Origin: an uncultured Neomegalonema sp.
GTDB taxonomy: Bacteria > Pseudomonadota > Alphaproteobacteria > Rhodobacterales > Rhodobacteraceae
Direction: 5' to 3'
Length of the DNA stretch: 64,000 bases
NCBI GenBank assembly: GCA_937995735.1
Contig: CALKIZ010000003.1
Span: forward strand, 176,287-240,286
A program made the position numbers and the translations under genes. Positions 10,996-54,889 of the stretch are shown piece after piece. The notes under the pieces were generated by a model. The model did no database searches and was not told where the DNA came from. It saw only the letters and a list, made by a program, of their open reading frames with translations. Within the stretch, counting starts at the first letter, position 1. The number at the start of each line of letters is the position of its first letter.

Positions 10996-12300
10996 ATGAC
11001 CCGTTTCGTGAAACGCCTGTTGGCTTCTTCGTGTATCGCTTTGTTTGCATCTCCGGGCGCGAATGCAGCGGTATGGACCGCTGAGAACGAATGGACCGCT
11101 GCTTACGAGGAAGGCTTCCCCGAATGGGTGCGGTCGGGTTTCGACAAGGATGCGTTCCATAAGCCGGAAGATAAGGCGCTGTTCGGCTTGGCGCTGGATT
11201 GCTCGGATGCGATATATGCGATGCGCATAATCTATGCGTATAAGAACAAATTACCCTTTGAGATCAATGACCCCCGCAATGGCCGCATCCTCACCAATGA
11301 GTTTGATAAATGGGACGGGTTCCGCGAAAAGCGCCGCCATGAAAACGATGATGGCACGTGGTCAACTTATGAGGGGCCGGAATATACCGAGACGGACAAG
11401 CTGCGCGCGTTCATCAATTTTATCGGGGACATCACCTCGACGATCAATTTGGCGCAAGACACCTATCCGGTGGCGCTGGAGGATGTGCAGCCGGGGGATA
11501 TGTTCCTGCTGCCCCGCAATCACGCTTATATCGTCAAGGACATCGACCCGACCGGCGCGATGACAACCCTGTCGCATTCCTCGCCGCGCGCTTGGCGGAT
11601 TATGGCGGAGATCAATGATTTTCCTGCTGAAGTCCCCGAAGACAAGCGTATGCGTGACGGGTATCGCCGGTTTAAGCCGCATAAATACCTGAAAAAGAAT
11701 GCACTGAGCGTTCCCGGCGCATCGGCGGAGCAATGGGAGATATCGAAATCCCTTGGCGGGGATCGCGAGGCGTTCAAGCTGGCCACCCAAACCGCGCTGG
11801 CCAGCATCAAAGAACCGCTTGGCGCGAAAGCCGACCGTTTGTTTGCCTCGCTCTGCGATTACACCACGCAACGGGTTGATATTGTTAATGAAAGCCTGAG
11901 CTTTTTGGGCAATATGCAGAACAATTCCGGCCGCCAATGCATGACCTTTGGTGAATACGCACAGCATTCGACCCCCGGTCGGGATAAAAAGCTCGCGGGC
12001 CAATTCAAATTGCTGCGCTCCTTGATGAAAGATCCTGAATGGAATGCTGAGTATTTCGGCGTGAAGCCAGCTATTGAGGCGATTTTTGATCCGGCAAATA
12101 ATGTGTCAGAGCAAGAGATTGGCAGCTTTTGCGCGGTTCCGTTTGATATTCGCGGCGGGCGTCAGATGAGTTTGCGCGAGATTTGGCGCGCGATTGAAGG
12201 CGGTCGGCTTGTTTCCGATCCTCATGCGCCGCTCAATAGCCGTTGGGGTCTTGCGCAATCCCAGTGGCATCCGCAATGCGAAAGCGCGAACCGCAGTTAG
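10996..12300 (+). CDS. Secreted protein, possible NlpC/P60- or papain-like fold
   Basis: Signal peptide (ASSCIALFASPGANAA); LDCSDAIYAMRI ... VQPGDMFLLPRNHAYIVKDI Cys/His arrangement. Confidence 0.7.
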   Translation: MTRFVKRLLASSCIALFASPGANAAVWTAENEWTAAYEEGFPEWVRSGFDKDAFHKPEDKALFGLALDCSDAIYAMRIIYAYKNKLPFEINDPRNGRILTNEFDKWDGFREKRRHENDDGTWSTYEGPEYTETDKLRAFINFIGDITSTINLAQDTYPVALEDVQPGDMFLLPRNHAYIVKDIDPTGAMTTLSHSSPRAWRIMAEINDFPAEVPEDKRMRDGYRRFKPHKYLKKNALSVPGASAEQWEISKSLGGDREAFKLATQTALASIKEPLGAKADRLFASLCDYTTQRVDIVNESLSFLGNMQNNSGRQCMTFGEYAQHSTPGRDKKLAGQFKLLRSLMKDPEWNAEYFGVKPAIEAIFDPANNVSEQEIGSFCAVPFDIRGGRQMSLREIWRAIEGGRLVSDPHAPLNSRWGLAQSQWHPQCESANRS

Positions 12301-12910
12301 AGGGTTTCCACGGTCTGAGCGGCGATATCTGTTGAGATACCCATAGCCCAAACACCTGTGCCTCCCGCCCGAATTTCGGAGGGAGGTCAGGGAACGGTGA
12401 CACGGGCAAGCCCTTGTCGGGCGGGCGTTCAATGCGGGGTCCGGCCAATTGCCGGTCGCGAAGCGCTGGTGACGGATGTTTTTCAAAGCGAAACAAAAGC
12501 CGACACGGGGAGATTACGCCCCGCATTTGCTTTTCGATCCGGCGTATCAGGCGCGCGGCATGACGCGGCAGATGCGTCAGGACGGCAAGCAATGCCTTGA
12601 GCCGTTCGCGGCAGTCAGACAGCGAGACAGCCTTTTCGTCCACCACAAATGCACGGGCGAGAGACTCTGACAATCGGCTTTGGCCGATAGCCGAGCCGCT
12701 GCGGGATTCCATCAAGCGGGCCTGTGCAATCACCAGATACTGTGCAGCAGTTTCGGCGCGGGACAGCATCGCCCCAACAAAGCGGCAGACCGAGATTGAG
12801 AAGCCGCGCGAGATCGGACCAAGAGACAAAACCCCAACCAAAACGACCAGCCCCGCGACAAGGCGGAGCAGTTTGAGCCGCTGAGTTTCTATTGCCCGTT
12901 CAAAGTCCAC
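12233..12910 (-). CDS. Hypothetical protein, paralogue of 52567-53259
   Basis: GTG start; N-terminus MDFERAIETQRLKLLRLVAGL resembles MDWQVAIERNRAVLLRLAAVM; LexA-type box upstream. Confidence 0.6.
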   Translation of the reverse strand: MDFERAIETQRLKLLRLVAGLVVLVGVLSLGPISRGFSISVCRFVGAMLSRAETAAQYLVIAQARLMESRSGSAIGQSRLSESLARAFVVDEKAVSLSDCRERLKALLAVLTHLPRHAARLIRRIEKQMRGVISPCRLLFRFEKHPSPALRDRQLAGPRIERPPDKGLPVSPFPDLPPKFGREAQVFGLWVSQQISPLRPWKPSNCGSRFRIADATGIAQDPNGY

Positions 12911-12950
12911 GCCGTCTTTTGCCTCTCGTTTGAATCAACGACAGCAACAA

Positions 12951-12965
12951 GAACTAAATATGAAC
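12951..12965 (-). promoter_or_regulatory. Putative LexA (SOS) box GTTC-ATATTTA-GTTC
   Basis: Top strand GAACTAAATATGAAC, 41 nt upstream of the 12910 start; TTGACA on the minus strand at 12969-12974. Confidence 0.6.
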
Positions 12966-12976
12966 ATTTGTCAAGA

Positions 12977-12998
12977 TGAATTTGCAAAAGCAAATTCA
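12977..12998. repeat. Perfect palindrome TGAATTTGC-AAAA-GCAAATTCA
   Basis: 9-bp perfect stem, 4-nt loop. Confidence 0.85.
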
Positions 12999-13009
12999 TA
13001 CAACCTCGA

Positions 13010-13513
13010 CGCCAACGCAAAACCAACAGCGGCAGATGCATTTTTCGAAGAAAAATCATTGAGAGCCAAGAGCAATCTTCGCCACAGGAAAGCAAATTCA
13101 CCCAGCCTCAATCCGAGCGCGAACCAAACCACATGGTGCTTCAAACTATCCGGGTCATCATCGGACTTGTTCCGATGATCCAGGGCAGCGGACGCCCGTG
13201 TTTTTGGCTCTGGATTGCCCGAACATGTCGGGCAATGACAATTACCGTCGTGTAATGTGAACACAAAACCAGCAGCGGCAGATGTATTTTTGCACTCCCC
13301 ATTGCCGCAGGCAATGACAGGGCAAGCAAAAATCACTGAGAGCCGAGTAGTTCGACGCCACAGGAAAGCAAATTCGTCCAGCCTCAATCCGAACGCGAAC
13401 AAAGCCACACGACGCTTCAAAATATTCGAGCAATCCAGAGTTGAAAATCCCGTTCCTAATGCACTGGATCACCGGGGCAAGCCCTATGACGCACAGAATA
13501 TTTTGAAGCGCCG
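13010..13513. repeat. Composite repeat/REP cluster: two related ~140-nt units, REP pair between them, long inverted repeat at the end
   Basis: Shared CAGCGGCAGATG(C/T)ATTTTT and CGCCACAGGAAAGCAAATTC..CCAGCCTCAATCCGA.CGCGAAC; inverted repeat CGACGCTTCAAAATATTC (13410-13427) with GAATATTTTGAAGCGCCG (13496-13513). Confidence 0.75.
13152..13260 (+). repeat. REP-pair element, copy 1
   Basis: Two 9-bp stem/5-nt loop hairpins: ATCATCGGA/TCCGATGAT (13157-13179) and ATTGCCCGA/TCGGGCAAT (13214-13236); matches 29999-30122 in inverse orientation. Confidence 0.85.
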
Positions 13514-52460: not shown

Positions 52461-52529
52461 GCGCGTAAGGAATGCCGTCCCTCGAAATTTATAATCGTTC
52501 TTGACAAGCTGGAAATTTGCAGTCTATTT

Positions 52530-52544
52530 GTTCATGTATTGTTC
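52530..52544 (+). promoter_or_regulatory. Putative LexA (SOS) box GTTC-ATGTATT-GTTC
   Basis: GTTC-N7-GTTC, 22 nt upstream of the ORF start at 52567; TTGACA at 52501. Confidence 0.6.
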
Positions 52545-52566: not shown

Positions 52567-53259
52567 ATGGATTGGCAGGTGGCGATTGAGCGGAATAGGG
52601 CGGTGCTGTTGCGCCTTGCTGCCGTTATGTTTGCCGCCATTGGTCTGAAGGGGGAAACGCCGGTTTCGACTGTTCCGCGCTTTATCCGTCTTCATGTGCT
52701 TGGGTTGTTGCGTCCGTCGGAGGCGGCGCTGCGACGGTTGATCGTGATCAAAGCGCGGGGGCTTGTTGCGCCTTTGCTTCGTGCGCGAGCCACCCTTGGC
52801 AAAACCATTCCACGTGGCAAGGGAAAGGCTGTACCGGCTTTTCCTCTGTTTGATCCGCGTAAGAAACTGAACCTCAATGGACAAAGGCGTCGGTATGCGC
52901 GTGGCTCCGGTCCCCGAATTTCTTCGTTTGACGAGCATCGCCGCAACGCTTTTGAAGACAAGATTGTCTCGCCCGATGATCCGGTCGATGCCGCTGCTTT
53001 GACGCGGCGGCTGTTGTCGTTAAAGGCGGCACTGGATGATATTGGGCGGCAGGCGCGTCGGCTTGTTCGGGCGGAAGCGGCGCGTAAAGCCCGCGCTGAT
53101 TTGGCCTCTTCCGGCGGTGTGAAACGATCTGCTTTGCGCCCGATGCGCCCTGGCCGGCCCCCCGGACATCAGGGAAAAGGACGGCGCGAGATTGATGAGA
53201 TTCTTGCGGAATGTCACACGCTCGCACTTCATGCTTTGGCTGTGCCGGATACCTCTTGA
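52567..53259 (+). CDS. Hypothetical protein, paralogue of 12233-12910
   Basis: 230 aa; N-terminal MDWQVAIERNRAVLLRLAAVMFAAIGL...RLIVIKARGLV; ends EIDEILAECHTLALHALAVPDTS. Confidence 0.7.
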   Translation: MDWQVAIERNRAVLLRLAAVMFAAIGLKGETPVSTVPRFIRLHVLGLLRPSEAALRRLIVIKARGLVAPLLRARATLGKTIPRGKGKAVPAFPLFDPRKKLNLNGQRRRYARGSGPRISSFDEHRRNAFEDKIVSPDDPVDAAALTRRLLSLKAALDDIGRQARRLVRAEAARKARADLASSGGVKRSALRPMRPGRPPGHQGKGRREIDEILAECHTLALHALAVPDTS

Positions 53260-54817: not shown

Positions 54818-54889
54818 GACGGGCCTCCCTTTCAGGAGGCCCCCGATAGCGTGAAATGATCGTTCGCGCTAGGTTCGTGTATCCGCTTC

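Follow-up and report, generated by a model that had tools for sequence, protein, structure and literature searches.

The window analysed here, a 64,000-nucleotide stretch of an uncultured Neomegalonema sp. genome, contains two genes of one protein family, each with a LexA-type box (GTTC-N7-GTTC) in its promoter. The features of the two loci are as follows.

12233 to 12910, minus strand: copy 1, an open reading frame of 225 aa with a GTG start, subfamily B.
12361 to 12386, minus strand: hairpin CCTCCCGCCCGAATTTCGGAGGGAGG, past the conserved end of the copy 1 protein, with this one site in the window.
12951 to 12965, minus strand: LexA-type box GTTCATATTTAGTTC, 40 nt 5′ of the copy 1 GTG and within the spacer between the −35 and −10 elements.
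12969 to 12974, minus strand: TTGACA, the −35 element of copy 1, 3 nt 5′ of the box.
52501 to 52506, plus strand: TTGACA, the −35 element of copy 2, 23 nt 5′ of the box.
52530 to 52544, plus strand: LexA-type box GTTCATGTATTGTTC, 22 nt 5′ of the copy 2 ATG and overlapping the −10/+1 region.
52567 to 53259, plus strand: copy 2, an open reading frame of 230 aa with an ATG start, subfamily A.

For copy 1, the reading frame, box and TTGACA hexamer lie where a preliminary description of this DNA had placed them, although the protein is conserved only to about residue 166 (near position 12413, close to the motif RIERPPDK) and not over the full extent of the frame. The last 59 or so residues are variable, cross the hairpin CCTCCCGCCCGAATTTCGGAGGGAGG and enter the 3′ end of a convergent open reading frame. 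Close subfamily-B copies have DNA in common up to about this hairpin, which is possibly the terminator of copy 1, with the long reading frame running through it. Over residues 1–168, dN/dS against paralogues and sister-species copies was 0.22–0.49, and the AF2 model (pLDDT 81, pTM 0.71) has helices at 3–30, 39–71, 97–112 and 114–129. The arrangement of TTGACA, 3 nt and box is common to six other subfamily-B paralogues. The sequence GAATTTGCAAAAGCAAATTC adjoins the copy 1 promoter, and diverged direct repeats lie behind it (window positions 12978–13435).

The same description had named a paralogue at 52567 with a promoter box of its own, and both the coordinates and the homology were borne out: the proteins of copies 1 and 2 matched by BLASTP at E=5e-6 and, in a profile–profile comparison, over their full length (hhalign probability 99%, E=3.9e-19). 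In the copy 2 promoter a −10-like TATTTG follows TTGACA after 18 nt. The ortholog of copy 2 in a sister species is 96% identical (dN/dS 0.12), and its AF2 model reached a pLDDT of 82.7 and a pTM of 0.79 with no fold match in the PDB or BFVD. Structure prediction, which had been suggested as a check, thus gave confident multi-helix models for both copies.

Within the window itself, the number of boxes is no evidence for regulation, and chance is acceptable as its source. Three GTTC-N7-GTTC sites are present against 2.37 expected, in line with the two or so per 64 kb that had been estimated beforehand, and 48 of 100 shuffles contained three or more. The third site (54862–54876) has a G+C-richer spacer, GCGCTAG, lies 44 nt 5′ of a minus-strand open reading frame (54817–54227) and may be a chance occurrence.

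The family is large. With copy 2 as the query we found 29 subfamily-A matches (E<0.01) in its own genome, and copy 1 retrieved 12 further subfamily-B members; counting from searches and fetched stretches together, the genome holds at least 41 members, fragments at contig ends included. Subfamily A proteins span about 210–245 aa and carry the motifs LRPAESALRRLI, F-LFDPRK, RPGRPPGYR and a C-terminal PDTS, while subfamily B has about 160–185 conserved residues terminating in R-ERPPDK. The earlier label of an uncharacterised family held for all of these copies: there was no match in Pfam, NCBIfam, PHROGs, PADLOC or PDB sequences, four weak Pfam matches of one or two members each having been dismissed, and a literature search restricted to open-licence papers found no description. 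Each of three sister species has at least 47 family matches. The genus of the window was judged to be Neomegalonema from contigs retrieved with one query, among them L143, which matches the G005 member at 100%. A further Neomegalonema sp. genome (G002, about 98% complete) has lexA and no family member that we could find, so the family is dispensable; judged from its sequence alone, this genome can either have lost the family or never acquired it. In a class-wide sample of 387 genomes, for which the best seven candidates per genome were scored, the source genome was the sole host. A scan of named genomes placed the family also in Aestuariivirga, Oricola, Mesorhizobium LHD-90, Hoeflea, Rhodobiaceae and other Hyphomicrobiales, with 2–31 matches per genome in 11 other alphaproteobacterial genomes.

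The preliminary description had rested its case on paired boxes upstream of two paralogues and had proposed searching the upstream regions of all homologues. That search extended the pairing to dozens of paralogues, to the sister species and to unrelated Hyphomicrobiales. Upstream DNA could be read for 39 members of the source genome. Within 75 nt of the start, the box is exact in 21 of them and has one mismatch in 15, so that 36 of 39 promoters are boxed at one mismatch or fewer. Rates in the window predict approximately 0.06 exact and 0.7 one-mismatch boxes for these promoters, and shuffling of the upstream DNA (38 regions, 2000 trials) gave a mean of 0.04 exact boxes (maximum 2) and of 1.1 at up to one mismatch (maximum 6). 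Chance as the origin of the family boxes was ruled out genome-wide by this comparison of promoter counts with shuffles. The genome-wide total is not enriched, with 97 exact boxes against 119 for a reversed control pattern, and the case therefore rests on position: the signal is carried only by AT-rich spacers and promoter placement. Exact boxes with at least five A/T in the spacer number 38 in the whole genome, of which 21 belong to the family.

Once near-duplicates were removed, the half-sites were the most conserved bases of these promoters, at 1.1–2.0 bits, with flanks mostly much lower. The distance from TTGACA to the box is 3 nt in seven subfamily-B copies, 9–12 or 32 nt in others, and 23–24 nt in most of the rest; the box stays near or over the core promoter despite this variation, and the differing spacings point to single promoters that were re-registered with the box retained. 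In a group of twelve close copies (C62), the second GTTC is mostly GTTT or the box has two mismatches, and from these letters LexA binding to their promoters may be weak. Upstream of many members (e.g. G000 C89, C92, C24 and C62) lie repeat blocks with a period of about 190 bp and palindromes of the form GCATTCGC-n-GCGAATGC; a palindrome of this type occurs within 150 nt of 15 of 37 members.

Boxes also stand upstream of the sister-species Neomegalonema members, and of 20 promoters from four Hyphomicrobiales genomes, 19 carry the exact motif while the other differs from it at a single base. The boxed lineages are Neomegalonema, Aestuariivirga, Rhodobiaceae and other Hyphomicrobiales. Homologues lacking the box had been named beforehand as an observation that would refute SOS control, and these exist in one branch alone. 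No box was found upstream of the members in Oricola (20), Oricola HH (9), Mesorhizobium LHD-90 (10) or Hoeflea (1), barring one site with one mismatch in Oricola, and these roughly 40 promoters mean that LexA control is not universal in the family. Oricola nitratireducens has 25 copies and no exact box. In the family tree the unboxed members, which are also multicopy, form a single branch nested among boxed ones, for which loss is the simplest reading. Many of the unboxed members (L273–L312, from Oricola nitratireducens, Mesorhizobium LHD-90 and Oricola HH) have TTATCCAC or TTATCCCC about 37–73 nt before the start, in letters that recall either a DnaA box or an atypical −35 element, with a TTACC-like hexamer about 17 nt further on (a spacing read by eye from the sequences). 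In the boxed promoters of Aestuariivirga and relatives (L313–L332), TATTCCTA lies upstream of the box and pairs inversely with GATAGGAA around the ribosome-binding site, about 35–40 nt away.

These comparisons bear on whether the boxes are mere passengers, copied with the promoter at each duplication and without present function in LexA control. Close copies do share promoter DNA along with the gene, and four own-genome members have identical boxes; yet the box is kept between paralogues only 35–45% identical in protein and between orders, its half-sites persist while flanks and spacing to the −35 element vary, and its clean loss in one branch is what would be expected of a trait that can be lost. 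We regard passenger boxes as very unlikely.

The identity of the motif is supported by other genes and by published work. GTTC-N7-GTTC is the LexA motif of Alphaproteobacteria (PMC3323433), and boxes with AT-rich spacers have been reported in Caulobacter (PMC12700426), among them GTTCttgttatGTTC; one member of the source genome (C61:54227) has exactly this box. The only lexA gene of the genome has the box GTTCTATTTAAGTTC 38 nt upstream, in agreement with both reports and with the earlier assignment of the motif to LexA, and a gene for a UvrD-type helicase has a box 43 nt upstream. In 16 further genomes, which either contain the family or are related to it, lexA has an exact box in 15 cases; with the source genome this makes 16 of 17. 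Around several non-family boxes that we examined, lexA and the UvrD-type gene were the only recognisable SOS genes. For recA (G000:C112, L135), the stretch examined has no exact LexA box, and three one-mismatch sites lie 90–144 nt upstream of the matched start; the lack of an exact box there is a point against LexA control of the family. At another locus (L114, 1545–1586), boxes GTTCTTTTGATGTTC and GTTCTTAGAAAGTTC, 27 nt apart, lie upstream of a 121-aa acidic open reading frame or overlap its start; this frame is possibly a further SOS gene. A different repressor with a LexA-like motif could in principle control the family, and orientation offers it some support, the family boxes all reading GTTC relative to the gene and the lexA boxes seen reading GAAC. 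Against such a repressor stand the same motif at lexA in nearly every genome looked at and at the UvrD-helicase-like gene, and the match of the AT-rich spacers to the reported Caulobacter boxes, which leave it, in our estimate, barely plausible. LexA control of the family is thus strongly favoured, on the strength of this link in cis and without binding or expression data.

The proteins are small and very basic, with a pI of mostly 10–12 and a net charge of about +10 to +28. A hydrophobic segment around residues 12–35 occurs in many of them, and hydropathy over 19 residues peaks at 1.6–2.4 in 11 of the 12 members of subfamily B and in roughly half of subfamily A. Known SOS-induced division inhibitors are much shorter proteins that span the membrane once and lack a strong basic charge. 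That the family might be inhibitors of this kind (SidA, DidA, YneA-like), delaying division at the inner membrane during repair, gains from the SOS-linked promoters and the hydrophobic N-terminal helix, as well as from the fact that SidA, DidA, YneA and SosA are likewise lineage-specific orphan genes of the damage response. These are tiny and occur once or twice per genome, whereas the present proteins have 160–230 aa, a strongly basic pI, a multi-helix AF2 fold and tens of copies, and forty copies of an inhibitor would be unusual; we consider this identity unlikely while keeping it in view. The small, basic, helical build is shared with nucleoid or DNA-protecting proteins of the HU/Dps type, for which a dosage-type function is plausible, but no similarity to these was found in sequence or, for the copy 2 model, in fold, and such proteins are not known to have tens of copies under SOS control.

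Genomic context offered no functional partner. In 120 loci there was no recurrent neighbour or partner gene, and large clusters of apparent neighbours were discarded, being the family's own genes read in antisense or in a shifted frame. The absence of a partner or immunity gene, together with the lack of a PADLOC match and the cost that 40 chromosomal copies would carry, counts against an SOS-induced toxin family serving altruistic death or inter-strain killing. Orphan, multicopy, diversified and basic proteins with hydrophobic helices behind LexA-type boxes would suit such a toxin, and we hold it to be improbable without discarding it.

The family proteins are under purifying selection as judged from substitution ratios, with a dN/dS of 0.11 among 12 close paralogues and a looser 0.2–0.57 in subfamily B. 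At least 16 of 23 tested copies share flanks and position with the sister species G012, the other seven having no partner among the fetched G012 regions. In the amplified subgroups, most pairs of own paralogues are 84–91% alike, compared with 77–85% between syntenic orthologs, while singletons (copy 2 and C9) are 92–94% alike with their orthologs. That paralogues are closer than orthologs at shared positions indicates concerted evolution, presumably by gene conversion, and the DNA shared by close copies comprises the promoter and gene only. At one copy (G000:C61:9111–9797) the two flanks match different contigs (G012:C15 and G012:C10). Each match lies at a family gene, a pattern suggestive of copies having recombined, unless the contig was joined in assembly.

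Such stability weighs on the idea of a selfish mobile gene that uses LexA to time its spread. The patchy distribution (the source genome alone among 387 class members, at seven best candidates each), the many copies in unrelated hosts and the repeats that flank copies, often at contig ends, could all be taken for mobility. RAYT/REPIN systems and insertion sequences similarly have tens of dispersed copies beside palindromic repeats, but here at least 16 copies keep their positions in the sister species, the family has its own LexA-boxed promoter, the shared DNA includes no partner gene, selection is strongly purifying, and there is no transposase or recombinase domain and no transposase-like Pfam, PHROG, plasmid or phage match. 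Stable positions and the lack of a mobility gene disfavour the selfish reading, which we rate as improbable. A phage, plasmid, prophage or GTA origin was also set aside, there being no relatives in phage, plasmid or IMG/VR records.

We therefore favour a LexA-repressed, SOS-induced and dosage-amplified family, with a probability of roughly 75%; the family, its copy numbers, boxes, purifying selection and homogenisation are read from sequence, and LexA binding, damage induction and biochemical activity are inferred from them. In an undamaged cell, LexA would occupy boxes that overlie the core promoter in some 36 or more copies, where a dimer would block RNA polymerase. Upon DNA damage, RecA-stimulated cleavage of LexA would release all copies together, giving a large surge of a small helical protein with a very basic charge, in a dose set by the number of copies, which gene conversion would keep alike. 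Nucleic acid would be the most likely target, with the product acting in bulk to compact, shield or handle damaged DNA, a proposal that we make only tentatively and with less than even confidence, as nothing beyond the strong basic charge supports it. Basic charge is no proof of nucleic-acid binding, and the hydrophobic N-terminal stretch could be membrane-associated; action at the inner membrane through these helices would be the main alternative role.

Known SOS regulons consist mostly of single-copy genes. The Caulobacter regulon, with 47 genes and 31 promoters (PMC12700426), resembles the present system in the promoter position of GTTC-N7-GTTC and in a lexA autoregulated by the same box, but it is made up mainly of distinct genes, whereas here one orphan family accounts for about 36 boxed promoters (21 exact). 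Most strong candidate LexA sites of this genome are thus supplied by a single undescribed family homogenised by presumed gene conversion, which probably also provides most of the bacterium's damage response. The family turns up again in several alphaproteobacterial orders, irrespective of species. Whether several such lineages have each built, from an unknown protein with a new fold, a gene-converted, LexA-controlled array of 15–50 copies that dominates the SOS regulon, a dosage-amplified DNA-damage effector without counterpart in known SOS systems, is a proposition to which we give slightly less than an even chance. Hosts with boxes on the amplified family, set beside Oricola and Mesorhizobium, where it is unboxed, amount to a natural experiment. 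If damage-inducible, the family would be a major unknown DNA-damage effector of environmental (activated-sludge) bacteria.
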